Of a stretch of 34,244 nucleotides of DNA, positions 6,805 to 21,275 are shown in pieces (within the stretch, counting starts at the first letter, position 1; each line of letters begins with the position of its first letter). The stretch covers positions 1-34,244 of the forward strand of contig REDI01000023.1 in assembly GCA_007693595.1 (NCBI GenBank), read 5' to 3'. Position numbers and translations under genes: made by a program. This stretch comes from Deltaproteobacteria bacterium (GTDB lineage: Bacteria > Myxococcota_A > UBA796 > GCA-2862545). The notes below the pieces were generated by a model, which was not told the origin of the DNA, made no database searches, and worked only from the letters and a program-made list of their open reading frames with translations.

Positions 6805-7626
6805 TCACCTCCCTTCAAAGAAGCTCTCCAGCCGACGCGCCACCTCGGCGGGGCGCTCGAGGTGCACGCTGTGCCCGGCACCTTCGATCACATCCAACCT
6901 GCCTTGGGGACTACGAGACGCGGCTCGCTCTAGGATGCGCACGTAGCGCCGATCCCTTGAGCCCGCGACGTAGAGCACGGGCAGACGCAGGGCCTCGAGG
7001 TGAGGCCAGAGATCGGGCTGCCGGCCTGGGCTCATCGCCGCGATGAGGGTGGCCATCGCCTCGGGGTCGGCCTGAGCGCGCCGATCTCGCTGGGCAGAGA
7101 AGCCGGGGCGGTCGCGCAGATCGGCGAAGAGCTCCATGCGGTACCAGTCGGTGAGAAAGGCGGGCAAGCCATGCGCGCGGATCTGCTCGGCGCGGGCTTG
7201 GTCGAGGGCCACGCGGTGGCGGCGCTCCTGGGGCACCGAGAGGCCAGGTGAAGCGGAGAGCAGCGTGAGCGAGCGCCACGATCGCCGCCCGAAGAGGGCC
7301 GACCACAGCGCGATCCTCCCCCCCATGGAGTAGCCCACCAGGTGCGCCGCTTCGAGGGGCTCGAGCGCTTCGTCCACCGCCCGCGCCATCCGAGCGAGCC
7401 CCGGCCCCTCCGCTTCTTCCCAGGCCCGCTGGTCCAGGGGGGCGCGCCCATGCCCTGGCAGGTCGACGCACAGGCACCGCCCTCGCACGTCGATCGGAGC
7501 GAAGTCCTCAGCGTCGCCAAACAGCCCATGGAGGAAGACGATGGGGCTGCCCTCGCCGCGCGCGTGGACCACCGCCTTCACCGCGGAAGGCCGCGGAAGG
7601 CCCCGGTTGGGCTCAGTCGAGATCAC
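6805..7626 (-). CDS. menH: MenH-like alpha/beta hydrolase (SHCHC synthase family)
   Basis: 273 residues from a GTG start at 7626, which overlaps the stop of the upstream gene as GTGA. An extended frame to 7716 exists, but it overlaps the coding end of that gene and adds only Arg-rich sequence. Features: FLHGLFGDAEDF (oxyanion side), DLPGHG, the nucleophile motif GYSMG (Ser100), Asp225 in AGSRDRRY and His252 in GHSVHLERP. GYSMGGR and MSPGRQPDLW match the MenH signature, an enzyme that eliminates pyruvate to give SHCHC in menaquinone synthesis. No other men gene is in the window, so it could be a related hydrolase working with the coupled carbamoyltransferase. The fold is certain and the reaction is moderately supported. 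Confidence 0.78.
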   Translation of the reverse strand: MISTEPNRGLPRPSAVKAVVHARGEGSPIVFLHGLFGDAEDFAPIDVRGRCLCVDLPGHGRAPLDQRAWEEAEGPGLARMARAVDEALEPLEAAHLVGYSMGGRIALWSALFGRRSWRSLTLLSASPGLSVPQERRHRVALDQARAEQIRAHGLPAFLTDWYRMELFADLRDRPGFSAQRDRRAQADPEAMATLIAAMSPGRQPDLWPHLEALRLPVLYVAGSRDRRYVRILERAASRSPQGRLDVIEGAGHSVHLERPAEVARRLESFFEGR

Positions 7627-9374
7627 CCGCGCACCCGCTCGATGTAGTGGTGCTCGAGCTGCAGCGCGTCGAGATCGGACCGCAGCAAGGTCTGGATGGC
7701 GTCGTCGGGGCTGCACACGATCGGCTCGCCGTGGAGGTTGAAAGAGGTGTTCAGCACACCCCCCACCCCGGTCTTGCGCTCGAAGGCTCGGAGCACGGCG
7801 TGAAAGCGTGGATGGAGCTCCCGGTTGACGATCTGGGGACGCGCCGTCCGATCGGCGGGGTGTATCGCCGCCTGAAGCTCATGGTGGGCCCGCGCGGTGG
7901 TCCGGCAGCCCATCACCATGTGCGGACTGCGAAAGCCCTTGCTCAGCTCGACGTAGTCGGCGGCGCGCTCCGCGAGGATCGCCGGGGCGAAGGGCATCCA
8001 GAAGTCGCGCTCCTTGATCGCCCGGTTGAGCCGCGCCACGACCTGGGTGGACCGGGGGTCGGCGAGGATCGAGCGGTGCCCCAGCGCCCGCGCGCCCCAC
8101 TCCATTCGCCCCGAGAGACGTCCGACGATCTGGCCCGCCGCCACCTGCTCCCCGACGAAGGCGTCGATGTTGTCGTGCCGCGAGACGCGAAAGCCGGTGG
8201 CGGGCAGCCCACGCTCCACGGCCCGAACGATCGGGTCCTCGGTGTAGCTCGGCCCCCAGTCCACCCCCCCGAGCGGCGCGAGGTCGGCCGCCGGGAAGCC
8301 CAGCGAGCGTGCCGCCAGGATCGCCGCCCCAACAGGGTTCGACTCATCGCCACAGCTCGGAAAGACGAAGAGCGATCGGAGCTCTTCGAGTCCCAGGATG
8401 CGTCGGTTGAGCTTGACGTTCATAAAGCCGCCCCCCGACAGCGCCACGTCGGGGATCCCCGTGTGCCGGATGGCGTTGCGCACCCACTGGAGGACCAGCT
8501 CTTCGAAGAAGTCCTGCACCGCGCCACAGACCACGTCGAAGCGCTCCTGGGCGAAGAGGTCGCAGAAGAGCTCTTCGAGCTGCCATTTCCATCGGCCGCT
8601 CTGGTTGAGGATCTGAAGCGGACGGTCCGAGCGGATCTGGTAGAGGGTGCGCAGCTTCGCCACCAGCTCGGCTCGCCCCTGCGCCGAGGCGTAGGGCGCC
8701 ATGCCCATGACCTTATACTCATGCGACATCGGCCGGAGCCCGAGGTGCTGCGTGACGCGGGTGTAGAGCTCGCAGATCGAGTTGTAGTTGAAGATGGAGG
8801 CGACCCGGCGCAGCTCACCGGCCTCTCCGATCTGCACAGTGCCCGCCACCGCGTCGCCCGAACCGTCGAGGGTGAGCACGAGGCAGGGGTCAGGGCGGTT
8901 CCAGTTCGAGTAATACGCCGTCGCTCCATGGAGGAGGTGGTGCTCAAAGACCCGCTTGGGGCCGCGCAACCCGATCCGATCGAGCTGAGATTTCAAGGCT
9001 TGGATGCGCGCTCTTCCCAGGCGCGCGCCGAGACGCTGGGCCAGCTCGACGTTGCCTTCGCGCTGAAGCAGCCGGGAGGGCAGCAGGGGGACCGCCGCCC
9101 CAAAGAGCCGCTTGGGCACGCTCGGACGCGCCCAGTCTTCGTGGCCGATCTGAGGCAACATCGAGCAGATCCCTATGGCGTCCACCTGATCGGGCTGTCG
9201 CCCCGCCACCTGAAGGCAGGCGAGGATGGCCCGCTCGGGAAAGCCCTTCCACTCCTTGACGCGACGGAGGCGCTCCTCGGAAATACAGGCCAGCACTCGC
9301 CCATCTTCGAGGAGGCACGCGGTGGCGGTGTGGCCGTCGTGCACCCCGAGCGTCAGCACGTCGACCTCGAGCAC
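7623..9374 (-). CDS. NodU/CmcH/TobZ-family O-carbamoyltransferase
   Basis: About 583 residues from GTG at 9374 (MLEVDVLTLGVHDGHTATAC). The open frame extends 89 codons further upstream but is Arg/Gly/Pro-rich there. The N-terminal Kae1-like domain shows HDGHTA, SEERLRRVK, HHLLHGATAYY, LTLDGSGDA, SHEYKVMGMAPYA, ALSGGGFMNVKLN and CGDESNPVGAA. The C-terminal YrdC-like part has EWGARALGHRSILADPR and NTSFNLHGEPIV. This family moves a carbamoyl group from carbamoyl phosphate, through a carbamoyl-adenylate, onto a hydroxyl of a sugar, antibiotic or lipo-oligosaccharide. No partner glycosyltransferase or polyketide gene is nearby. It is translationally coupled to the MenH-like hydrolase and divergent from moeB. 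Acceptor unknown. Confidence 0.88.
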   Translation of the reverse strand: MLEVDVLTLGVHDGHTATACLLEDGRVLACISEERLRRVKEWKGFPERAILACLQVAGRQPDQVDAIGICSMLPQIGHEDWARPSVPKRLFGAAVPLLPSRLLQREGNVELAQRLGARLGRARIQALKSQLDRIGLRGPKRVFEHHLLHGATAYYSNWNRPDPCLVLTLDGSGDAVAGTVQIGEAGELRRVASIFNYNSICELYTRVTQHLGLRPMSHEYKVMGMAPYASAQGRAELVAKLRTLYQIRSDRPLQILNQSGRWKWQLEELFCDLFAQERFDVVCGAVQDFFEELVLQWVRNAIRHTGIPDVALSGGGFMNVKLNRRILGLEELRSLFVFPSCGDESNPVGAAILAARSLGFPAADLAPLGGVDWGPSYTEDPIVRAVERGLPATGFRVSRHDNIDAFVGEQVAAGQIVGRLSGRMEWGARALGHRSILADPRSTQVVARLNRAIKERDFWMPFAPAILAERAADYVELSKGFRSPHMVMGCRTTARAHHELQAAIHPADRTARPQIVNRELHPRFHAVLRAFERKTGVGGVLNTSFNLHGEPIVCSPDDAIQTLLRSDLDALQLEHHYIERVRG

Positions 9375-9639
9375 AGAGACCCGACGGCCCCGGAAGGGGC
9401 AAAGGCCCCCGCAGGAACGGGAGTCCTGGCGCCGGGCTCGCCCGGAGCCGCAGCGGGGAACCCTGGAGGCGAGGCGAGGGTGGAGAGGGTCAACACGGGG
9501 GAAGGCTACCCGGCCCCGTGAGAGCGCGCCACCACCGCCCGCAGGAGACGTGTCGAACGCTCGGCATCCGCCCCGAGAGGGTGGAAAGGGCAGGGGCGGC
9601 CCGATACGCTGTCCCGTCCTGACCCTCACGGAAGACCTC

Positions 9640-10716
9640 ATGTCCGAGCCTCTCAGCCCCGCCGAGCGCGCGCGCTACGCCCGTCATCTCAGCCTGCCCG
9701 AGATCGGCGAGGCGGGGCAGCGGATCCTGCGCGATCGGGCGGTGGTCGTCGTTGGCGCCGGGGGGTTGGGCTCTCCCTGCCTGCTCTACCTCGCGGCGGC
9801 AGGGGTCGGTCGGCTCGGCCTCGTGGACTTCGATAACGTCGATGTGAGCAACCTCCAGCGGCAGGTCCTCTACGGCCAGGCCGACGTGGGCGCTCCGAAG
9901 GTGAGCGCGGCGGAGCGCAGACTGGGCGACCTCAACCCCCACATCACCATCGAGCCTCACGCCGTGCGGCTGTCGGCCGACAACGCCCTGTCGATCCTCG
10001 GGTCCTACGATCTCGTGATCGACGGAAGCGACCGCTTCTCCACCCGCTACCTGGTGAGCGATGCCTGCGAGATCCTAGGCAAACCCCTCGTCTACGCCGC
10101 TATCCAGTCCTTCGAAGGGCAGCTCGCGGTGTTCAACCACGAAGGCGGCCCCACCCTGCGCGACCTCTTCCCGGAGCCCCCGCCTCCGGGCCTCGCCCCC
10201 CGCTGCGCCGAGGTTGGGGTGCTCGGGGTATTACCCGGTCTGCTCGGCACACTGCAGGCCTCCGAAGCCCTCAAGGTGCTCCTTGGGATCGGCGAGCCTC
10301 TTTGCGGCAGGCTGCTCCTGATCGACGCCCTGCGCATGACCTTTCGCTCCCTGCGGCTGGCCCGCGATCCCTCCCGCGCAGCGATCCACGACCTGAGCGC
10401 TCACGCGCCGCCTCCGTGGCAGGTCCTCGACCCCTCCGAAGCCGCGTCGCGTCTGCGCGAAGGCTGGGCCCCGGCGCTGATCGACGTGCGCACCCAGGCA
10501 GAAGCCGAGGTCGATCAGATCGCCGGCACCGCCCTCCGCTGCGAGCCTCAAGACATCCTGCCTTCCGGCCTGCCTCTCGGCGAGGTCCTCATCTACTGCG
10601 CCAGCGGGGGCCGCTCGACCCGCGTAGCCCGAGCGCTGCTCGACCAGGGCGTCGCCCCCGCCCGCTTGCACGAGCTCCGCGGGGGCCTCCAGGCCTGGCG
10701 CGCCGCCGGCTACTGA
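9640..10716 (+). CDS. moeB: MoeB-type MoaD adenylyltransferase fused to rhodanese
   Basis: 358 residues from ATG 9640, with GGAAG upstream. The E1-like domain (1-245) has GAGGLGS (39-45), NLQRQVLY with Arg74, Lys87, DGSDRF (128-133) and CAEVGVLG (189-196). It would adenylylate the C-terminal Gly-Gly of MoaD so that the thiocarboxylate can be rebuilt. The C-terminal rhodanese domain (about 260-358) has the sulfur-carrying loop CASGGRS with Cys320, giving a built-in sulfur donor as in ThiF/MOCS3-type fusions. Unlike classical MoeB, the four zinc cysteines are absent: the place of CxxC before LFP reads TLRDLFP (172-178), and the later pair reads RDPSRAAIH (242-250). It lies 8 bases before the moaC fusion. 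Confidence 0.9.
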   Translation: MSEPLSPAERARYARHLSLPEIGEAGQRILRDRAVVVVGAGGLGSPCLLYLAAAGVGRLGLVDFDNVDVSNLQRQVLYGQADVGAPKVSAAERRLGDLNPHITIEPHAVRLSADNALSILGSYDLVIDGSDRFSTRYLVSDACEILGKPLVYAAIQSFEGQLAVFNHEGGPTLRDLFPEPPPPGLAPRCAEVGVLGVLPGLLGTLQASEALKVLLGIGEPLCGRLLLIDALRMTFRSLRLARDPSRAAIHDLSAHAPPPWQVLDPSEAASRLREGWAPALIDVRTQAEAEVDQIAGTALRCEPQDILPSGLPLGEVLIYCASGGRSTRVARALLDQGVAPARLHELRGGLQAWRAAGY

Positions 10717-10724
10717 GAGGTCGC

Positions 10725-11615
10725 ATGAAAGACGTCACCTTCCGCCCCCAGACCCTCCGCGAGGCCACCGCCCAGGTGCTCGTGCGCCTCGACGCGCCGA
10801 CCCTCACCCTGGTCGCCGAGGGCCGGGTGAGCAAGGGCGATGTGCTCGAGGCCTCCCGGCTCGCCGCGATCATGGCGGTCAAGAAGACTCCCGACATCCT
10901 GCCCTTCTGCCACCCCCTCCCCGTCGGCGGGATCGACGCCCGCGCCGAGCTGGTCGCTGAGGGCATCCAGCTCACCCTCACCGTGCGGGGGATCGCCAAC
11001 ACCGGCTTCGAGATGGAGGCCCTGGCCGGGGCTGCGGTGGGGGCGCTCAACGTCTACGACATGCTCAAGCCCCATAGCCAGGCCGTCTTCATGGAGGGCG
11101 CCCAGCTCGTGCAGAAGCAGGGCGGGACGGCGCAGTGGCGCGAGACCTTCGCGCCGCCGCTGGTCGCCGTGGTCCTCCCCTTCGGCGACGTCACCGCGCA
11201 GACCTCGACTCGGTTGCGCGACCGACTCGCCCAGACCGATGGGGTACGTGCGACGATCCTCCCGCCCATCGCCCCGAGCCAGGGGGTTGCCCGACTTCGC
11301 GCCGCGATCGCCGAGGGCGCGGAGCTGATCCTCACCCTCGGAGGGCTGGACCTCCGTGGATCCTCGGGCGCCTACGAGGCGGTCACCGAGCTGATCGATG
11401 TGGAGCTTCCCGGCGTGATCGACGCCGCCCGCGCCTATCTCCAGCGTCGCACCCCCCGTGGCATGCTCCTCCGCGGCACCTGCGGACGGGCCGGCGACAC
11501 CCTGATCGCGACCTTTCCGGGCAACCCATCCCAAGCTGACGACTGCGGTCAGGCGCTCCTCCCTCCCCTGCTTCACGCCGTGCACGCGATCCGTGCCTCC
11601 CCCTCCAGGGCGTGA
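10725..11615 (+). CDS. moaC: Bifunctional MoaC - MogA/MoaB-like fusion protein
   Basis: 296 residues from ATG 10725, with GAGAGG 5 bases upstream. Residues 1-140 are MoaC: KKTPDILPFCHPLP (53-66, Lys53 equivalent to the catalytic lysine), NTGFEMEAL (92-100) and YDMLK (111-115). MoaC makes cyclic pyranopterin monophosphate from the MoaA product. Residues 145-290 are a MogA/MoaB-type domain with FPGNPSQADDC near the end. MoaC/MogA fusions are known. Here the usual TTGGTG...RDVTPEA segment reads TLGGLDLRGSSGAYEA (204-219), so the substrate loop and catalytic Asp are not conserved. A normal stand-alone MogA is encoded at 20724, so the fused domain may be structural or regulatory. The gene ends 6 bases from the convergent TSUP gene. 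Confidence 0.92.
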   Translation: MKDVTFRPQTLREATAQVLVRLDAPTLTLVAEGRVSKGDVLEASRLAAIMAVKKTPDILPFCHPLPVGGIDARAELVAEGIQLTLTVRGIANTGFEMEALAGAAVGALNVYDMLKPHSQAVFMEGAQLVQKQGGTAQWRETFAPPLVAVVLPFGDVTAQTSTRLRDRLAQTDGVRATILPPIAPSQGVARLRAAIAEGAELILTLGGLDLRGSSGAYEAVTELIDVELPGVIDAARAYLQRRTPRGMLLRGTCGRAGDTLIATFPGNPSQADDCGQALLPPLLHAVHAIRASPSRA

Positions 11616-11621
11616 GCGAGC

Positions 11622-12365
11622 TCAGAAGAGCAGGAGCTTGAGCCCGGCGACCAGGAGCACCACCGCGAGGAGCCCTCGGAGGGTATTCCCAGCCAGCCAG
11701 CGGGATCCCAGGGTGCTACCGATCGCGCCCCCCACAGCCACCACCAGCGCCGCTGGGAACACCATGGGCGGGATCTCGCCCCCCGCGTAAAGCACGCCCG
11801 CCAGCCCTGCGAGGGAGTTCACGAGGATGAAGACGGCCGAGATCCCGGCTGCCTCGCGAGGGGTCGCCCAGCCAAAAAAGATCAGCAGCGGCGTGAGGTA
11901 GATGCCCCCCCCGGTCCCCGTCAGGCCCGCGAGCAGCCCGAGGACTGCGCCGCAGAGCAGACGCAGCGCGACGCCCGGCGGCCCGGAAGGCCCCGCCGAC
12001 GCCTCCTTCGAAGTCCGCCCGAGGGCTCCCCACCCCAGGCGAGCCGCGGAGGAGAGCAACACCACACCGATCAAGGCGTGGAACCAACCGGCGGGGACCG
12101 ACAGGGCCCCCCCAAGCAGCGCGAGGGGCGGGCCCAGCAGCAGAAAGGGCCAGAGCAGCCGCCAGCGGACCGACCCCGCCGTAGCGAAGGTGGCCGCGGT
12201 GATCCCAGCGACCGCGACGTTGAGCGAGAGGGCGACGGGTCGGATCACCTCGGGGGGGTGCCCTGAGAGGCTGAGGACGGCGATGTAGCCGCTCGCTCCC
12301 GCGTGCCCGACGGAGGCGTAGAGGATCGCCACCACGGCCAGGGCGAGAACGACCAGGAGGTTCAC
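11622..12365 (-). CDS. TauE/SafE (TSUP) family membrane transporter
   Basis: 247 residues, about seven to eight hydrophobic helices in two similar halves. Typical TSUP features are ASVGHAGASGY near the N-terminus and LLAGLTGTGGGIYLTPLLI in the second half. TSUP proteins move sulfite, sulfoacetate, thiosulfate-like or other small anions across the inner membrane. The GTG start at 12365 overlaps the moeA stop (GTGA), so it is the translationally coupled last gene of the xdh-moa operon. Its position makes sulfur-anion or molybdate handling for cofactor synthesis an attractive guess, but the substrate cannot be told from sequence. Confidence 0.87.
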   Translation of the reverse strand: MNLLVVLALAVVAILYASVGHAGASGYIAVLSLSGHPPEVIRPVALSLNVAVAGITAATFATAGSVRWRLLWPFLLLGPPLALLGGALSVPAGWFHALIGVVLLSSAARLGWGALGRTSKEASAGPSGPPGVALRLLCGAVLGLLAGLTGTGGGIYLTPLLIFFGWATPREAAGISAVFILVNSLAGLAGVLYAGGEIPPMVFPAALVVAVGGAIGSTLGSRWLAGNTLRGLLAVVLLVAGLKLLLF

Positions 12366-13576
12366 CCCTCGACCTCCCAGGCCTGACCCGCCCGGCGCGC
12401 CATCGGCAGCACCGAGCCGGCCGGGAGGGCCCCATCCCCGGCCTCGACGCAGGTGACCCAGGGGCTCACCGAGGCGCCGCGCAGCATGCCGCTGTCCTGG
12501 GCCTGGTGCGCGGTCGCCTCGAGGCCATGCGCCGTGGAAGCCAGGGAGAAGCGAAGGAACTGCGCCCGCCAGCTACGGCGGACCGGATGGGTGAGCCGCG
12601 CATGAACCACCTCGGGGGCGGTCCGACGGTCCCCCAGACGCTCGAGGAGGGGTGCGACCAGCAGCTCGAAGGTCGTGAGGACGGCCAGCGGGTTGCCCGG
12701 AAGCCCGAAGAGGTGACAGGGACGGCCATCGATCGAGAGCAGCCCGGCGTGGGTGGGCTTGCCGGGCTTCATGGCGACCCGGTGAAAGAAGGCCTCGACA
12801 CCGAGGTGGTCCCAGGCGGCCTGGAGGTGATCGTGGTTCCCCACCGACGCGCCCCCGGTGGTGATCACGACGTCCGAACCTTGGACGGCGCGGGTGAGCG
12901 CCCCGCAGAGCGCCTCGAGATCGTCGCCGACGTGTTCGAGGGTGTGCTCTGGTACGCCGAGGGCGTCGAGAGAGGCCTGGAGCAGGGGGCCGTTCGCATC
13001 GCGGCCGGGGCCTTGGGTGGTGGGGCCGCCCGCGAACTCCTCGCCCGTGACCAGGATCGCGACCTTGGGCGGGGCCTGCACCGCAACCTGCGGGATCCCC
13101 AGCGCTCCGAGCATGCCGATCATGGCCGGCTGCAAGGCGGTGCCCGCGCGGATCAGCACCTCGCCCGGTCGGATCTCGCTGCCTTGGCGCCGAATGAACT
13201 GCCCCAGCCGCACCTCGCCCTCGATCCTCACCCCCTCGGACGTCTCGACGGTTCGCTCGATGGGGACGATCCCCTGGGCCCCCTCCGGCACCCGTCCGCC
13301 CGTGCTGATCCGCGCCGCCTCGCCCGCCCCGAGCGCGCCCTCGAAGGCGTCGCGTACCGTCGCCTCGCCCCTCACCCGTACCACGGGATCGCTCCCTTCG
13401 ACCGCACCGACGGCGTAGCCATCCATGGCGCTCCGATCGTAGGGGGGCAGCATGGCCTCGGCGAGGAGATCTCGGGCGATCGGACAGCCGAGGGCCTTCA
13501 CGATGGGGACCTTCTGAGGCGCGAGCGGACGCGCGGCCTTGAGGACCAGGGAGCGGGCTTCGCGGGGGTGGATCAT
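12362..13576 (-). CDS. moeA: Molybdopterin molybdenumtransferase MoeA
   Basis: 404 residues from ATG 13576; the open frame continues 19 codons upstream into moaE. Recognised by PPYDRSAMDGYAV, an RISTGGRVPEGA region, a VTGEEF segment in place of the usual TGDEL, the catalytic TTGGASVGNHD motif, and KPGKPTHAG followed by GLPGNPLAV. MoeA inserts molybdate into adenylylated molybdopterin made by MogA. The length fits the family. The start is 1 base past the moaE stop and the end overlaps the TSUP start by 4 bases, so it sits in a tightly coupled operon. GRDANG replaces the more usual DSN stretch in the middle domain, a mild deviation. Confidence 0.95.
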   Translation of the reverse strand: MIHPREARSLVLKAARPLAPQKVPIVKALGCPIARDLLAEAMLPPYDRSAMDGYAVGAVEGSDPVVRVRGEATVRDAFEGALGAGEAARISTGGRVPEGAQGIVPIERTVETSEGVRIEGEVRLGQFIRRQGSEIRPGEVLIRAGTALQPAMIGMLGALGIPQVAVQAPPKVAILVTGEEFAGGPTTQGPGRDANGPLLQASLDALGVPEHTLEHVGDDLEALCGALTRAVQGSDVVITTGGASVGNHDHLQAAWDHLGVEAFFHRVAMKPGKPTHAGLLSIDGRPCHLFGLPGNPLAVLTTFELLVAPLLERLGDRRTAPEVVHARLTHPVRRSWRAQFLRFSLASTAHGLEATAHQAQDSGMLRGASVSPWVTCVEAGDGALPAGSVLPMARRAGQAWEVEG

Positions 13577-13577
13577 G

Positions 13578-14018
13578 TCAGTCCTCGGGGGCTTGGATGG
13601 GCTGACCCGTGTCGCTGATCTCGCGCGCTCCATCGGGGCGCACGTCGACCTTCCAGATGGCGACCTCGCGCTTGAGACGCTCGATGGAGCGCTCGCAAGC
13701 CTCGAAGGCCTCGCGGCGATGCCGGGCGCGAACCACCGAGATCACCGCCGTCTCGCCAGCGGGCACCCGCCCGACCCGATGCACGATCCGCACCGCGAGC
13801 ACCCCCTGGGACGTGAGGAGGTCCCGTTCGATCCGGGCGAGCGCACGCTCGGCGAGGCCGGGGTGCACGTCGTAGTCGAGGGCGACGATCGAGCCTTGCG
13901 GCTCCTGGGCGCGCACATCGCCGGCAAAGACCACCACCGCCCCCGCGTCGACCCCAGCGGTCTCGGCCAAGAGCGCGTCGAGATCGAGAGGCTCCGCGCT
14001 GAGGTGTCGGGGGCTCAT
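13578..14018 (-). CDS. moaE: Molybdopterin synthase catalytic subunit MoaE
   Basis: 146 residues from ATG 14018, which overlaps the moaD stop as ATGA. MoaE carries out dithiolene formation with the MoaD thiocarboxylate on cyclic pyranopterin monophosphate. Visible family features are GAVVVFAGDVR, a LDYDVHPGLAE helix, RIVHRVGRVPAGETAV and REAFEACERSIERLKREVAIWK, which carries the conserved lysines of the active site. Length is normal. Overlap with moaD suggests balanced, coupled translation of the two synthase subunits. Confidence 0.95.
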   Translation of the reverse strand: MSPRHLSAEPLDLDALLAETAGVDAGAVVVFAGDVRAQEPQGSIVALDYDVHPGLAERALARIERDLLTSQGVLAVRIVHRVGRVPAGETAVISVVRARHRREAFEACERSIERLKREVAIWKVDVRPDGAREISDTGQPIQAPED

Positions 14019-14263
14019 CCGCCACTCACGGGAGGGATCAGCGCGATCTCGGTCAAAGGAGGCAAGGGATCGGCCGGGCCGACCAGCGCGTCGTCGACAC
14101 AGATCGCCACCGCCCCCATGAAGGGCTCGAGCTCGGGGAGGGCCTGCCCGATCAGGGTCTTGAGATCCTCCACATCGGCGGGAGAGCGGGGTAAATCGAG
14201 GGCGAGGCGGGAGGTGCCCGCGATCTCGCGCAGCGTACCGTAGAGCTGGATCTGGAGCGGCAT
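14015..14263 (-). CDS. moaD: Molybdopterin synthase sulfur-carrier subunit MoaD
   Basis: 82 residues from ATG 14263, a ubiquitin-like fold beginning QIQLYGTLREIAG and ending in PPVSGG. The terminal Gly-Gly is where MoeB adenylylates and where the thiocarboxylate forms. It starts 5 bases after the moaA stop and overlaps moaE by 4 bases. The open frame continues far upstream antisense-like, but the family N-terminus fixes the start here. Confidence 0.95.
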   Translation of the reverse strand: MPLQIQLYGTLREIAGTSRLALDLPRSPADVEDLKTLIGQALPELEPFMGAVAICVDDALVGPADPLPPLTEIALIPPVSGG

Positions 14264-14268
14264 GGCTC

Positions 14269-15306
14269 TCAGCCTCCGATGGTGGACATGTGGGTGGTGG
14301 TGGGCTCGCCCTCGCGCCAGCGGTGACCCTGGTTCTTCGCCGCCGCCGCCGCACGCAGACCCGCGATCACGGCCGCCCGGTCGCGGGCGCGCAGGGCGTC
14401 GAGGAGGGGGTGCTCGTGATCCTGCGCGAGGCAGGGCCGAACGCCGCCGCGGGCCGTCAGGCGAAAGCGGGTGCAGGTATTGCAGTAGGGATCCGAGAGC
14501 GGGGTGATGAAGCCGAGCTCCCCCTTGGCGCCCGGCACTTTGTAGTAACGAGCTGGGCCGTTGCCGATCAGAGGGGAGACGGGCACCAGGCCGTGGCGAG
14601 CGATCAAGGCATCGCGGGCCGCGGCCACGTCGGCGCGGGCGGGGGCCTCGACGCCGCGCGCAGCCTCGCCGATGGGCATGACCTCGAGGAAGCGGGGGGT
14701 GATCGGGTGGATCGTGGTGAGCTCGACCCACCGATCGAGCTCATCTTCGTTGAAGTCTGCGATGAGCAGCACGTTCACCCGAACCGGATGAAGACCCGCG
14801 TGGACCGCGGCCAGGATCCCCCGCCACACGGCCTCGGAGCCCTCGCGTCGAGTGAGCGCCCGGAAGCGCTCGGGACTCAGCGTGTCGAGGGAGATGTTGA
14901 TCCGATCGAGCCCCGCCCTCGCCAGCCCGGCCGCCTTGTCCTCGAGGCGGGTCCCGTTGGTGGTGAGGGAGAGATCGTCGAGGTCGACCTCGGATCTGAG
15001 CCGCGCGATCAGCCGCTCCAGCCCGGACCGCAGCAGAGGTTCCCCCCCGGTGAGTCGGAACCGGGTGATACCCAGCTCCGAGGCGACCGTACTAGCGAAG
15101 ATCACGTCGTCATCGCTCAGGCGAGCCTTGGGATGGAGCCACCGCAGCCCAGCGGCAGGCATGCAGTAGCTGCACCGTAGATCGCAGACATCGAGCAGCG
15201 AGATCCGAAGGCTGCGGATCGGGCGACCGTGCGCGTCGATCAGAGGCTCCACAGGCTGCGTAGACAGCCTCGGTGATGGCTTATCGAGGGGGAGGATGGC
15301 AGACAT
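14269..15306 (-). CDS. moaA: GTP 3',8-cyclase MoaA (radical SAM)
   Basis: 345 residues. The N-terminal radical-SAM cluster motif is CDLRCSYC (Cys41, Cys45, Cys48), followed by TGGEPLLR (Gly87-Gly88-Glu89 contact SAM). The C-terminal substrate cluster uses Cys275, Cys278 and Cys292 (CxxC-x13-C). The protein ends in MSTIGG, the conserved Gly-Gly tail needed for activity in MoaA. It catalyses the first step of molybdopterin synthesis from GTP. The N-terminus has about 25 extra residues before the fold. It lies 49 bases downstream of the YdcZ-like gene, the largest gap in the operon, so an internal promoter is possible. Confidence 0.96.
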   Translation of the reverse strand: MSAILPLDKPSPRLSTQPVEPLIDAHGRPIRSLRISLLDVCDLRCSYCMPAAGLRWLHPKARLSDDDVIFASTVASELGITRFRLTGGEPLLRSGLERLIARLRSEVDLDDLSLTTNGTRLEDKAAGLARAGLDRINISLDTLSPERFRALTRREGSEAVWRGILAAVHAGLHPVRVNVLLIADFNEDELDRWVELTTIHPITPRFLEVMPIGEAARGVEAPARADVAAARDALIARHGLVPVSPLIGNGPARYYKVPGAKGELGFITPLSDPYCNTCTRFRLTARGGVRPCLAQDHEHPLLDALRARDRAAVIAGLRAAAAAKNQGHRWREGEPTTTHMSTIGG

Positions 15307-15355
15307 GGAGGCGCTCGAGGGCTGCGTGAGGGAGGCGGGCGAAGCGAGAGGGGTA

Positions 15356-15805
15356 TCAACTCTCCCAGGTCGCGACCAGAACGCCGATCACTGCGAGCGC
15401 GGAGCCGCCTCCCCGCGCGAGGGTCACGGGCGCCCCGCCCAGCAGGGCGTCCCAGAGCAGGCTGACGACGAGCTGGGCCACCACCATCACCACGAAGACC
15501 CGCGCCGCTCCGACCTCGCTGATCGCCCAGGGGATCCCAGCGATGATGCAGAAGCCGAAGATCCCTGGCACCACCATCCACAGCGCGAGGCGAGAGAGAT
15601 CGGGCGCCCCGGCGAAGATGGGCGGCAGCCAGCCCGGCGCGAAGCGCGCCACCGCGTAGAAGACCGTCCCCACCACCATCACGACGATGCTGTTCAAGAA
15701 GATGGCTGATCCCAGGCCCATGCCGTAGCTCATCTCGCGGTTCAGCGTCCCTTGCAGCACGGTCATCGCGCCGATGGCGAGCGGGATCAAAAGGTACCAG
15801 TTCAT
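15356..15805 (-). CDS. YdcZ/DUF606-type small multidrug/metabolite-transporter-like membrane protein
   Basis: 149 residues with five predicted membrane helices. The start MNWYLLIPLAIGAMTVLQGTLN and the pattern of Gly-rich helices match the DUF606 (YdcZ) family of the DMT superfamily. Single-domain members are usually thought to work as dimers. The ATG at 15805 overlaps the xdhC stop as ATGA, tying it to the XDH genes. Function is unknown in the family; here it may move a purine, a cofactor intermediate or another XDH-related metabolite, which is inference from position only. Confidence 0.85.
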   Translation of the reverse strand: MNWYLLIPLAIGAMTVLQGTLNREMSYGMGLGSAIFLNSIVVMVVGTVFYAVARFAPGWLPPIFAGAPDLSRLALWMVVPGIFGFCIIAGIPWAISEVGAARVFVVMVVAQLVVSLLWDALLGGAPVTLARGGGSALAVIGVLVATWES

Positions 15806-16806
15806 GAAGACACCTCGGCGAGCGGGCTTGGGGCGCGCCCGGGAAAGAGGGTAGGACGGAGTTGGAGGATCTGAGCGGCCACCGAGACGGCGATCTCGGA
15901 AGGGCGACTGCTGGAGATCGGCAGCCCGACAGGCGCGACGATGCGATCGAGGATCGCAGGCGAGTAGCCCGCCTGAGTCAGCTCGTGGCGGATGCGCGCG
16001 ATCTTCGCCGGCGCACCCATCAGACCGACGAAGAGGAAGGGCTGCTGGAGTACGCCGAGCAGGGCGCGGACGTCCGAGGGCATGTCCGAGGTCATCACGA
16101 TCGCGTGGGTGAGCGCGGGGTGTCGGACCCGCGCCGCGAGATCGGCGAAGTCGGCTCCGGTGATCACGTCGTGCACGGCGTCGTTCTGCTCCAGCGTGAA
16201 GAGCGTGTCTCGGACTTCGGCGACGCTCACGAAGAAGTCGAGCCAGGCGAGCTGCCGGCTGAGGGCGAGCCCGCAGTGCCCCCCGCCGAAGATCACAGCC
16301 CGATCTTGTCGGAGGAGCTGGATCTCGACGCCACCCTCGACCACGCGCACCGGCGCCTCGTCGGGGTGGGAGGACGCATCCAAGACCTGGACCCGACCGT
16401 CGAGGCCGACAAAGAGCACCCCGTCCTCATCGGCTACGATGCGCGACGCCGCCCGCCGGACGACCTGGGCGTGCCGGTCCGGTTCGAGCACGGCGTAGAG
16501 GTTGGTCTGCCAACCCGCGCAGAGGAGCCCCGAGGTCTTACCCTTCGCCTTCTTGCGGTGGTGCAGGGTCTCGATCTCGACGAAGGGACCCGCCGAGGCG
16601 AGAGCCTGCTTCCCCCGCTCCAGGACCCGGTGCTCCATGCCGCCGCCCCCGATCGTGCCGACCGGCGGACCCTCGGGCAGCAAGGCCAGCGTCGCCCCCC
16701 GCGTACCCGGCGAATGGCGCGTGTGATCCGCGACGAGGGCGATGAAGACCCGCTGCCCCGCCCCTAGCGCCTCCGCGACCGCCTGCCAGACCTGCGCGGC
16801 GATCAT
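15802..16806 (-). CDS. xdhC: XdhC-family Moco maturation and insertion factor
   Basis: 334 residues from ATG 16806 (ATGA overlap with xdhB). The N-terminal XdhC/CoxI part has HSPGTRGATLALLPEG, GTIGGGGMEH and LLCAGWQ. The C-terminal Rossmann-like part has VIFGGGHCGLALSRQL and VMTSDMPSD. XdhC proteins bind molybdopterin cofactor, hold it while the sulfido ligand is added and deliver it to xanthine dehydrogenase. Placement straight after xdhB is the standard arrangement and strengthens the XDH call. It overlaps the downstream membrane-protein gene by 4 bases. Confidence 0.93.
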   Translation of the reverse strand: MIAAQVWQAVAEALGAGQRVFIALVADHTRHSPGTRGATLALLPEGPPVGTIGGGGMEHRVLERGKQALASAGPFVEIETLHHRKKAKGKTSGLLCAGWQTNLYAVLEPDRHAQVVRRAASRIVADEDGVLFVGLDGRVQVLDASSHPDEAPVRVVEGGVEIQLLRQDRAVIFGGGHCGLALSRQLAWLDFFVSVAEVRDTLFTLEQNDAVHDVITGADFADLAARVRHPALTHAIVMTSDMPSDVRALLGVLQQPFLFVGLMGAPAKIARIRHELTQAGYSPAILDRIVAPVGLPISSSRPSEIAVSVAAQILQLRPTLFPGRAPSPLAEVSS

Positions 16807-19073
16807 CGATCCTCGGGGTCTTCGGTCTCGTACAGCCCCATCAGGACCCGCTCGGGGGTCATCGGCGCGTGAAAGGGAAGCCGCGCGGTGGGGTTGAAGG
16901 CCCGGACGGCTTCGCGAAGCGCAAAGTAGGCACCGATCCCATACATGAGCGGGGGCTCTCCCACCGCCTTCGATCCGTAGGGCATGCCGGGGTTGTCGTC
17001 TTCGATGAGCCGCGCCCGGACCTCGGGCATGAAGTCGCCATCGGGAGCCTTGTACGTTGATAGCGCCCGCGAGAGCAGCCGCCCTTGGTCGTCGTAGGCC
17101 AGCTCTTCGAGGGTCATCCACCCGATCCCCTGGGCCAGCCCTCCCTCGATCTGGCCGATGTCGACCACCGGGTTGATGGAGCGCCCGAGATCATGCACCA
17201 CGCAGATCGGCTCGAAGGTGTAGGTTCCTCGACGCACATCGACCTCGGCCACAAAGACCGACGCCCCCCAGACGTGGTAGGCGAAGGGGTTGCCCGTCTC
17301 GGTGTTGGTGTCGAAGTTGAGGTCTGGCGTGGCATAAAATCCGTGTGCGCTCAGATCGACCCGCGCGAAATACGCCTCGGAGACCAGGCGGGTCCAGCTC
17401 CAGTCCGTCGGGGATCCGTCGAGGGTCACGACTTCATCGATCAGATCGACCCGCGAGACCTCGGCGCCCAGACGCTCAGCAGCCAGGGCGAGCAGCCGTC
17501 CCCGAACCTGGCGCACAGCCTCGAGGGTGGCGTTGCCGTTGAGATCGGTGGTCGCGCTCGCCGCGCTTGGCGACATGTTGGCGACGCGCGTGGTGTTCGT
17601 CGACTCGAGCCGGACGCGCTCCCCCCGGATCCCCAAGGCCTGCGAGGCGATGTCGCGCAGCTTCGAGTTGACCCCCTGCCCCATCTCGACGCCTCCGGTG
17701 GACAGCCCCACGCTGCCGTCCCCGTAGACGTGCAGCAGCGCACCCGCCTGGTTCAGAAAGGTCTTCGTGAACGAGATCCCAAAGCAGATCGGCATCACCG
17801 CGAGCCCGCGCCGGGTAGGGCCCCGCTGGTCGTTGTGCGCCTTGACCGAAGAGACCATGCCCTCGAGATCGAAGGCCTCGGCCAGCTCATCGAAGCAGCG
17901 CTCCCCTCGCGCCCGCACCATGGGCTGCCCATAGGGGGTGACGTCGCCTTCGCGTATCAGGTTGCGCCGCTGGATGACATGCCGAGGGATCCCCAGGTGG
18001 TCTGACGCGTGGGCGAGGGCGGCCTCGATGACGAACATGCCCTGGGGACCACCGAAGCCCCGAAAGGCGGTGTGAGGCTGGAGATTGGTTCGGCAGCACG
18101 CGGCGGTGACCTGCACGTTCGGCACCCGGTAAGCGTTGGTGGCGTGAAAGAGGCTGCGCTCGAGAACCGCCGTCGAGAGGTCCGCGCGGGCGCCGGAGTT
18201 CTGATAGAGCACCGCCCGATACGCCAGGATGGTGCCGTCGGACGACAGCCCGATCTCGTAATCGGCGCTGTAAGGGTGCCGCTTGCCCGTCATCTGCAGA
18301 TCTTCGAGGCGGTGCAGCACGATCTGGACGGGTCGGTCGAGCTGATGTGCCGCAAGCGCCGCGACGCAGGCCCAGGCCGTGGCTTGATCCTCCTTGCCGC
18401 CAAAACCGCCGCCTAGGCGCCGCACGTCGACCTCGACACGGTGGTTTGGCAGGCCGAGCACCCGCGCCACCGCCTTCTGGACCGCGTAGGGGCTCTGGGT
18501 CGAGGACGCGACCCGGATCGCTCCGCCTTCCTGGGGGACGGCGCGCGCTCGCTGAGTCTCGAGGTAGAGGTGCTCCTGGCCCGCGATCTCGCAGGTGCCT
18601 CGGAGCACGACGTCGGCCTTCGAAAAGCCCTGGTCGATGTCTCCACACGCGAAGGTCCGCGCCGGCGCGATCAGCTCGCCTCGTTCGAACGCCTCGCGAG
18701 GATCGACGATGGGCGGCTCGGGATCGACCTGGACCTGCACGAGGGCCGCAGCACGGCGCGCGAGCTCCTGGCTCTCGGCGACGACGACGGCGACGGGATG
18801 ACCGATGTAAGCGACCTCGGTGGAAGCGAGCAGCTCCTCGTCGGGGAGCAGGGCCCCGATCTGGTTCTGCCCTGGGATGTCACGAGCGCGCAGGATCGCG
18901 TGCACACCCGGCAGGGCCCGCGCTTCGGCCGTCTCGATGGCGCGGATCGAACCCTTGGCCTGCGGCGAGCCAACGACGGTGGCATACAGCGTGCCCACCG
19001 GCGGGGGCACGTCGTCGATATATTGGGAGGTGCCTCGCACATGGTCGACGGCGTCGTAGTGACGGCGGCTCAT
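16803..19073 (-). CDS. xdhB: Xanthine dehydrogenase, molybdenum-binding subunit
   Basis: 756 residues, normal for XdhB. Key motifs are GGGFGGKE (221-228; Glu228 fits the substrate-binding glutamate), TAFRGFGGPQG (Arg338 fits the substrate-binding arginine of true XDHs), LHDLGRS-like VVHDLGRSINP, and the catalytic base in AVGEPPLMYG (Glu706). The Glu/Arg pair distinguishes purine-oxidising members from aldehyde or CO dehydrogenases, so hypoxanthine/xanthine is the likely substrate. It forms a heterodimer or heterotetramer with XdhA in the cytoplasm. ATG 19073 overlaps xdhA by 4 bases and its end overlaps xdhC by 4 bases. Confidence 0.94.
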   Translation of the reverse strand: MSRRHYDAVDHVRGTSQYIDDVPPPVGTLYATVVGSPQAKGSIRAIETAEARALPGVHAILRARDIPGQNQIGALLPDEELLASTEVAYIGHPVAVVVAESQELARRAAALVQVQVDPEPPIVDPREAFERGELIAPARTFACGDIDQGFSKADVVLRGTCEIAGQEHLYLETQRARAVPQEGGAIRVASSTQSPYAVQKAVARVLGLPNHRVEVDVRRLGGGFGGKEDQATAWACVAALAAHQLDRPVQIVLHRLEDLQMTGKRHPYSADYEIGLSSDGTILAYRAVLYQNSGARADLSTAVLERSLFHATNAYRVPNVQVTAACCRTNLQPHTAFRGFGGPQGMFVIEAALAHASDHLGIPRHVIQRRNLIREGDVTPYGQPMVRARGERCFDELAEAFDLEGMVSSVKAHNDQRGPTRRGLAVMPICFGISFTKTFLNQAGALLHVYGDGSVGLSTGGVEMGQGVNSKLRDIASQALGIRGERVRLESTNTTRVANMSPSAASATTDLNGNATLEAVRQVRGRLLALAAERLGAEVSRVDLIDEVVTLDGSPTDWSWTRLVSEAYFARVDLSAHGFYATPDLNFDTNTETGNPFAYHVWGASVFVAEVDVRRGTYTFEPICVVHDLGRSINPVVDIGQIEGGLAQGIGWMTLEELAYDDQGRLLSRALSTYKAPDGDFMPEVRARLIEDDNPGMPYGSKAVGEPPLMYGIGAYFALREAVRAFNPTARLPFHAPMTPERVLMGLYETEDPEDR

Positions 19074-20578
19074 GGGCGCCCCCCGATCGCAGCCCCAGCC
19101 GGCGCGACGAGCCCCAGCGCCTCGTCGAGGGGTAGCTGTCGCGGGAAGAGGTCGGTCAGCGCGCTGAGCAGAAGTTGACGCGCGAGCAGGCGCTTATAGG
19201 CGGCGCTCCCGCGGACATCGCTGATGGGCGCGACCTCGCCGTCGGCCGCCTGCAAGACCTGATGGAGCAGGTTCGGATCGAGCCTTCGCCCCACCATCAC
19301 GGCGCTCGCCTCGCGCAGCAACAGCGGGATGGGCGCGACACCCCCGACCGCGAGTCGCGCGGCCTGCACCGTGTGCCCATCGCTCGACAGGCGAACCCGG
19401 ACCGCGGCGTTTACCGTGGCGATGTCGAGGCAGCGGCGCTTGCTCACCTTCTCGAAGGCGACGTGATCGTCTGCGCCCACCACCGGAAAGGCGATCTGCC
19501 CCACCAGCTCCTCGGCGCGCTTGTCGAGAGTCTTATACCCTAGGTAGAGATCTTCGAGGGGCATCTCCCGGCGCTGCCCCTGGGGATCGACCAAGGTGAT
19601 CTGAGCGCCCAAGGCCAGTAAATAGGCGGTCATGTCGCCGATGGGCGAGGCGTTGATGAGGTTGCCCGCAAGGGTCGCGCGGTGCCGGATCGGCAGTGAG
19701 GCGATCAGCTCCATGGTGTCGAGGATCGAGGGCAGCATACGCTGGATCTCGGGGTGCTCGGCGAAGTCTTGGAAGGTGGTGACGCCCCCGATCCGAACGC
19801 GCTCCTCGTCGACCTCGATATAGGACCACGAGGGGCGATGATTTAGCATCTGCACCGACACATGGGGGAGCTCTTCGCCGCGCTGGACGTAGAGGTCGGT
19901 CCCCCCTGCGATGGCGATAGGAGGCGCTCCGGCCTCGGAGCTCCGGGGCTTGGCCGGCTCGAGGCCCACACGCAGCTCGGTGAGCCGCTGGGGAAGCTCG
20001 GCGAGCCAGGCGGGAAAGGCCCCTCGCTCGACCAGGGCAGCCACCCGATCGGGGGCCTGCCAGACCCCTTCGAGATCGCCACCCGCCGCGAAGCGGGCGA
20101 CGACCCGCTCCGCCGCACGAAAGATCGAGCCATAGCCGGTGCACCGACAGAGGTTACCGCTGATCGCGTCGCGGAAGCCGGCCAGGCTGGGTTCGGGGTC
20201 CGTCGAGTAAAGGATGTACCAGCACAGGCTCACGATGAAGCCGGGCGTGCAGAAGCCGCACTGAGCGCCGCCTTCTTCGACCATGGCCCGCTGGGCCGGG
20301 TTCAGCTCACCCGGCACGTTGAGACCCTCGATGGTGATCAGCCCCCGCCCATGCAGCTCCCCGAAGGGCACCAAACACGAGGTCACCGGGCGCACCCGCA
20401 CCCCTCCGTCGGGCTCGGACGTCGCGAGCATGATGGCGCAGGCCCCGCAGTCGCCTTCCTTGCATCCTTCCTTGGTGCCACACAGGCGACGGTGCTCCCG
20501 AAGCCAGTCGAGGGCCAGCAGGCCGGGAGCAGCGTCCGCCAAGGTCAGAGCGCCGTTGACTAGCAGGTTGATCTTCAT
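19070..20578 (-). CDS. xdhA: Xanthine dehydrogenase, 2x[2Fe-2S] and FAD subunit
   Basis: 502 residues. The plant-ferredoxin-like cluster uses Cys39, Cys44, Cys47 and Cys68 (GTKEGCKEGDCGAC). The second cluster uses Cys107, Cys110, Cys144 and Cys146 (QCGFCTPG, GNLCRCTGY). The FAD domain from about 200 has AIAGGTDLYVQ and TLAGNLINASPIGD. It passes electrons from the Mo centre of XdhB to FAD and on to NAD. It is the first gene of the long operon; GGGAG lies about 8 bases before the ATG. The 145-base divergent gap to mogA probably holds promoters for both. Confidence 0.95.
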   Translation of the reverse strand: MKINLLVNGALTLADAAPGLLALDWLREHRRLCGTKEGCKEGDCGACAIMLATSEPDGGVRVRPVTSCLVPFGELHGRGLITIEGLNVPGELNPAQRAMVEEGGAQCGFCTPGFIVSLCWYILYSTDPEPSLAGFRDAISGNLCRCTGYGSIFRAAERVVARFAAGGDLEGVWQAPDRVAALVERGAFPAWLAELPQRLTELRVGLEPAKPRSSEAGAPPIAIAGGTDLYVQRGEELPHVSVQMLNHRPSWSYIEVDEERVRIGGVTTFQDFAEHPEIQRMLPSILDTMELIASLPIRHRATLAGNLINASPIGDMTAYLLALGAQITLVDPQGQRREMPLEDLYLGYKTLDKRAEELVGQIAFPVVGADDHVAFEKVSKRRCLDIATVNAAVRVRLSSDGHTVQAARLAVGGVAPIPLLLREASAVMVGRRLDPNLLHQVLQAADGEVAPISDVRGSAAYKRLLARQLLLSALTDLFPRQLPLDEALGLVAPAGAAIGGRP

Positions 20579-20723
20579 GAAGAGGCTCCCAGTGGCGGCA
20601 CGAGGCCAAAGGATCGGCTACCGCCAGAGCCTACACGCCGCGCCCTGGCCTTGCCACCTCGGCCCGCAGAGGCCCGCGCGCACGGCCCGCAGCATCACGA
20701 ACCCTTCCGCTTCGGAGTCCCCC

Positions 20724-21275
20724 GTGTCCGAGCTCGTCCACATCGGCATCGTCACCGTCTCTGACCGCGCGACCCGCGGTGAATACGAAGATCGCGGCGG
20801 CCCCGCCATCGAGCGCGAGCTCGACCGCCTCCTCGCCTCGCCCTGGCAAGGCCATCGCGTCCTCGTCCCCGATGAGCAACCCCAGATCGAGCGCGCCCTG
20901 ATCGAGCTCTGCGACGACCGCGGCTGCGCCCTGGTCGTGACCACCGGAGGCACCGGCCCCTCTCTACGCGACGTCACCCCCGAGGCCACCCAAGCCGTCT
21001 GCGACCGCATGATGCCCGGCTTCGGCGAGCTCATGCGCGCCGAGAGCCTCAAGGTGGTGCCCACCGCCATCCTCTCGCGGCAGGTCGCCGGGCTCCGACG
21101 CCGCTCGCTCATCGTCAACCTGCCGGGCAACCCCTCCGCCATCCACGACTGTCTCCAAGCGGTCTTTCCCGCCATCCCCTACTGCATCGACCTGCTCGAA
21201 GGTCCCTGGATCGACCTCGATCCCGAGCAGTGCGTGGCCTTTCGCCCCAAGCACGCCAAGCGAAAGAGCTCGTAG
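20724..21275 (+). CDS. mogA: Molybdopterin adenylyltransferase MogA
   Basis: 183 residues from GTG 20724, with GGAG about 6 bases upstream. The open frame runs further upstream but is antisense to xdhA. The match to classical MogA is strong over the full length: IGIVTVSDRATRG, VTTGGTGPSLRDVTPEAT with the catalytic Asp, PTAILSRQVAG, VNLPGNPSAI, PYCIDLLEGPW and the terminal AFRPKHAKR. It adenylylates molybdopterin before MoeA inserts Mo. It is divergent from xdhA. A hairpin starts directly after the stop. Confidence 0.95.
   Translation: MSELVHIGIVTVSDRATRGEYEDRGGPAIERELDRLLASPWQGHRVLVPDEQPQIERALIELCDDRGCALVVTTGGTGPSLRDVTPEATQAVCDRMMPGFGELMRAESLKVVPTAILSRQVAGLRRRSLIVNLPGNPSAIHDCLQAVFPAIPYCIDLLEGPWIDLDPEQCVAFRPKHAKRKSS

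Follow-up and report, generated by a model that had tools for sequence, protein, structure and literature searches.

A predicted menH gene outside its men cluster and the orphan O-carbamoyltransferase gene beside it in a deltaproteobacterial genome

We describe two adjacent genes, encoding a class III O-carbamoyltransferase (CT) and a MenH-type hydrolase, which are very probably neighbours with unrelated functions: a relocated menH serving menaquinone synthesis and an orphan CT with a probable polar acceptor. Both are ordinary enzymes of known families, and their adjacency is probably an accident of genome history. On the best reading of the sequence data, the hydrolase gene is the missing menaquinone (vitamin K2) gene of this genome, which would complete a scattered pathway and flags an intact orphan CT. 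A possible 4-base overlap and adjacency alone are no proof of a shared pathway. The genes lie in the window, by which we mean the whole analysed stretch of 34,244 nucleotides, as follows:

7623..9374, minus strand: class III O-carbamoyltransferase (NodU/CmcH/TobZ superfamily) with Kae1-like and YrdC-like domains; likely start GTG at 9359 (578 aa)
6805..7626, minus strand: MenH (2-succinyl-6-hydroxy-2,4-cyclohexadiene-1-carboxylate synthase; alpha/beta hydrolase); start GTG at 7626 or, by homology, GTG at 7581
7623..7626, minus strand: GTGA, shared by the CT stop and the upstream candidate menH start; conditional on the start codon

Arrangement of the gene pair

The original prediction, which placed a carbamoyltransferase next to a MenH-type hydrolase, is confirmed by the domain matches on the minus strand. 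Its 4-base overlap is a more conditional matter: the letters GTGA are present at 7623-7626, but they form a real overlap only if menH starts at 7626, whereas the ATG of the closest MenH homologue (G109, 56-57% identity) aligns with the in-frame GTG at 7581. If this later start is real, CT and menH are separated by a gap of 41 bases and do not overlap, and it is this arrangement that the closest homologue supports. On the minus strand of 7581-7600, the 10-mer CCTTCCGCGG is tandemly duplicated, ending at the alternative menH start.

For CT, three relatives (L063, L066, and L067) begin with MLTLG[I/V]HDGHTATAC and two others (L064 and L065) have the same ATG in frame. This ATG aligns with the GTG at 9359 of the window, and GAGG is located 5 bases upstream of that GTG, so that 9359 (578 aa) is a better CT start than 9374.

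CT and menH are adjacent on one strand whichever start holds, and their tight spacing, a point against two unrelated genes, suggests one transcript; a shared transcript is probable, while a shared pathway is not. Their codon usage (cosine 0.981 for CT and 0.963 for menH, against 0.942-0.982 for eight comparison genes) fits the genome, so that in neither gene do we see signs of a spurious reading frame or of recent acquisition. Upstream of CT, a divergent gene for a ThiF/rhodanese protein heads a region with no evident link to the pair:

9613..21275: molybdenum-cofactor and xanthine-dehydrogenase-like region with ThiF-rhodanese, MoaC fused to a MoCF domain, TauE-type permease, MoeA, MoaE, MoaA, XdhC-like protein, MoCoBD subunit, FAD/2Fe-2S subunit, and a further MoCF protein

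Identity of the hydrolase

The hydrolase matches the menH_SHCHC family TIGR03695 with 2.5e-59 and 200.8 bits, slightly below the cut-off of 208.55, and the MenH-like proteins of relatives score 224.3, 199.1, and 160.2 bits. Ten MenH residues are reported to be invariant across 47 sequences, with EcMenH as the reference (PMC3630204), and nine of them are identical in the window protein (Y99, S100, R104, R138, D142, W161, R183, D225, and H252). The tenth, EcMenH Lys212, is replaced conservatively by R227.

The score just under the equivalog cut-off and the Lys-to-Arg change could be taken as signs of a MenH-derived esterase working outside menaquinone synthesis, with SHCHC formed spontaneously or by an unrecognised protein. 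We consider this very improbable, since Arg occupies the same column in the men-linked MenH of three relatives (G086, G078, and G070), two of the relatives' MenH-like proteins likewise score below the cut-off, and nine of the ten invariant residues are retained.

The AlphaFold model of the protein (pLDDT 94.2) points to the same identity, its best 14 PDB matches in Foldseek being all MenH, including VC1974 of V. cholerae, a presumed MenH according to PMC3630204. With the E. coli (4gdm) and S. aureus (2xmz) enzymes it shares the fold, the catalytic triad S100-D225-H252, and the equivalents of Y99, R104, R138, D142, W161, and R183; it differs from them in having Arg227 for Lys212, in the position of its gene outside the men cluster, and in an identity of about 27%. 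Judged from these sequence features, the window hydrolase is the genome's MenH, a predicted SHCHC synthase, which would release pyruvate from the SEPHCHC made by MenD and so supply MenC with its substrate, SHCHC.

The menaquinone pathway and menH in relatives

The original prediction also allowed for a hydrolase whose MenH activity contributes to a quinone pathway with scattered genes, and this suggestion is supported. The genome-wide search found menF, menD, menC, and menE together with menB and menA in one cluster (G000:C19, 4822-12041), which is located on another contig than the window and has no menH:

G000:C19: menB (4822), menF (5683), menD, menA, menC, menE (to 12041), DAHP synthase (to 12928)

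In the profile search, MenB, MenF, MenD, and MenA of this cluster exceed their family cut-offs. MenC and MenE are below the strict cut-offs and were recognised by homology and gene order, on which the completeness of the pathway therefore rests. The window gene is the sole strong MenH of the genome, with 200.7 bits against 47.3 for the next match, in an assembly of 97 contigs that is 98.39% complete, so that it may lack a second menH, or a polysaccharide cluster, that the organism has. The window MenH would complete the menaquinone pathway, the other genes of which (menB-F-D-A-C-E) are on the separate contig.

The nearest MenH sequences are those of G109 (57% identity) and of G228, G086, G078, G132, G136, and G070 (45-47%), most of which belong to a single further family of the phylum (f15). 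In G086, G078, and G070, menH is convergent to a run ending in menD-A-C-E-DAHP synthase, the same order as on C19. In G109, men genes are found about 7 kb from menH, and in G213, menH adjoins a menB 80% identical to the menB of this genome. Among 29 MenH loci of the phylum (L103-L131), for which flanks of about 1.5 kb on each side were fetched (less at contig ends), a men gene is present in 18, only a piece of DAHP synthase in one, and neither in 10; an unlinked menH is thus common in the phylum.

In the MenH tree, the window and G109 proteins pair at 100/98 inside a 16-row clade. This tree has long paralogue branches and an arbitrary root, and it was used for these placements only. Two loci found with the MenH query (L052 and L053) group in it with non-MenH paralogues. 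Beside the menH of G109 there is a 48-residue match to DAHP synthase, about 6.5 kb from the full copy (L138, G109:C267, 1678-1821 and 8285-9139), which suggests an insertion or partial duplication there.

Search for other CT-menH pairs

From the overlap, the original prediction had derived a shared pathway, possibly a small undescribed modification system in which the hydrolase works on a carbamoylated product. In such a system, a metabolite carbamoylated by CT would be, for example, hydrolysed or rearranged by the hydrolase. Recurrence of the pair was surveyed in two sets of genomes and at the CT loci of a contig scan. Among 58 genomes (relatives and the genome under study), CT matches occur in 52 and MenH matches in 12. 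For these genomes the comparison is based on the loci: no CT is present at the MenH loci L043-L053, nor at L103-L131 of the phylum set, with flanks of about 1.5 kb covered at most of them, and none of the 38 CT loci L063-L100 contains a MenH-like ORF. Among 377 genomes of the phylum, MenH is matched in 121 (at 1e-25) and CT in seven (at 1e-85), the genome under study being included in both counts; 33 of the 120 other MenH places were inspected as loci, namely the 29 of L103-L131 and those of G011, G014, G033, and G042 (L043-L046).

Only one other genome present in both lists, G345, has nearby CT and MenH places, within 6 kb. This candidate pair (L137, G345:C1) was rejected as a scaffolding artefact, a gap of 100 N parting the men cluster from CT; G345 is a single-contig genome containing such 100-N scaffold gaps. 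The translations of the genes around its CT resemble two sugar epimerases and a methyltransferase. In G089 and G113, also present in both lists, the CT and MenH matches are on different contigs.

The CT-menH pair recurs at no other locus examined. The original prediction had named two findings that would refute it, a complete men pathway lacking another menH and no recurrence of the pair in relatives; within the limits of this search both were made, and the coupling of the two enzymes is not supported. The same-strand adjacency, the possible 4-base overlap, and the orphan state of CT, whose usual partners are missing, speak for a joint modification system. Against it are the MenH-specific substrate residues retained by the hydrolase beyond the triad, its status as the sole strong MenH in a genome where the men pathway is otherwise present, and the absence of the pair from every other locus examined. 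We regard such a system as extremely improbable. Even fainter is the prospect that an orphan CT of the polysaccharide type was recruited in the menH operon to a new substrate, such as the hydroxyl of a menaquinone intermediate or a derived quinone.

The carbamoyltransferase and its acceptor

The CT frame (7623-9374) matches Carbam_trans_N (3.5e-30, 106.1 bits) and Carbam_trans_C (2.2e-60, 203.5 bits), both over the Pfam cut-offs; the gene is intact and present as a single copy in the genome. Its relatives in the PDB are NovN, GdmN, and TobZ, with which it shares the Kae1-like and YrdC-like domains and the metal and base residues described for GdmN: the ligands H133, H137, D156, and D333 of GdmN correspond to H140, H144, D165, and D338 of CT, and the base H27 to H10 (578-aa numbering), all of them kept. 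The enzyme would convert carbamoyl phosphate and ATP into carbamoyl-adenylate and then transfer the carbamoyl group to an acceptor hydroxyl. An assignment as the NodU nodulation carbamoyltransferase (NF041651) was rejected at 89.1 bits, the equivalog cut-off being 1000.

Unlike the settings of TobZ, NovN, and GdmN, the window shows no antibiotic cluster. In addition, CT differs from GdmN in the absence of the C-terminal dimerisation domain described for that protein. Class III carbamoyltransferases without this domain are described as usually having polar acceptors (PMC9633730), and we infer from this class that the CT acceptor is probably polar and probably sugar-like.

A contig scan of named genomes, with CT as the only query, gave 38 relatives, L063-L100. 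The five closest are 53-57% identical over near full length, and their source MAGs carry the labels Desulfobacterales, Planctomycetota, Polyangiaceae, Thermoplasmata, and Rhizobiaceae. A GH88-like neighbour is located upstream of CT in all five (in L066 as a 121-residue match only, beside an N gap), a WecG/TagA-type glycosyltransferase near CT in four, and an ADH/GFO-type oxidoreductase in three. The GH88-like proteins are tied together by a mutual identity of 49-65%, while the label itself is weak: of three proteins scanned with Pfam GH88, that of L067 reaches 25.9 bits against a cut-off of 26.6, that of L063 reaches 21.3, and that of L064 gives no match.

The window CT shares its 53-57% identity with the GH88-like/WecG clusters L063-L065 and L067, and differs from them in lacking a GH88-like, WecG, or ADH/GFO-type oxidoreductase neighbour and in being followed by menH. 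Searches of the whole genome found no WecG (with 7 of 14 controls detected), no PF02397 initiating sugar transferase (9 of 14 controls detected), and no GH88-like protein (a single search run without a control). A second GH88-like search, across 377 genomes, gave no match in the genome under study and matched five others, one of them G135, from which the query was taken. A search of the window for GH88-like or WecG remnants gave only matches with E 0.44-0.45, which fall among the molybdenum-cofactor genes and were rejected.

By its sequence relationships, this CT is an orphan of the polysaccharide type, which has probably either been separated from the polysaccharide genes found beside its closest relatives or arrived without them. 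As CT is intact, it probably does something beyond this account. One refinement of the relocated-menH and orphan-CT explanation, to which we assign somewhat less than an even chance, is that CT still targets a glycan of the cell surface, assembled by glycosyltransferases that belong to other families and are encoded elsewhere in the genome. The position of four of the five nearest CTs among polysaccharide-type genes is consistent with it, as is the missing dimerisation domain with the polar acceptors usual for such enzymes (PMC9633730); the failure to find WecG, the PF02397 transferase, and a GH88-like partner in the genome weighs against it.

Judged by titles and abstract openings, the literature searched gave nothing on the CT-menH pair or on a CT/WecG cassette, and co-mentions were incidental. 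GH88-like protein, CT, and WecG-type glycosyltransferase recur together as a cassette at L063, L064, L065, and L067, in MAGs of several phyla, with CT at 8001 or 5865 and an ADH/GFO-type oxidoreductase in three of the four; this cassette is possibly an uncharacterised polysaccharide-modification module.
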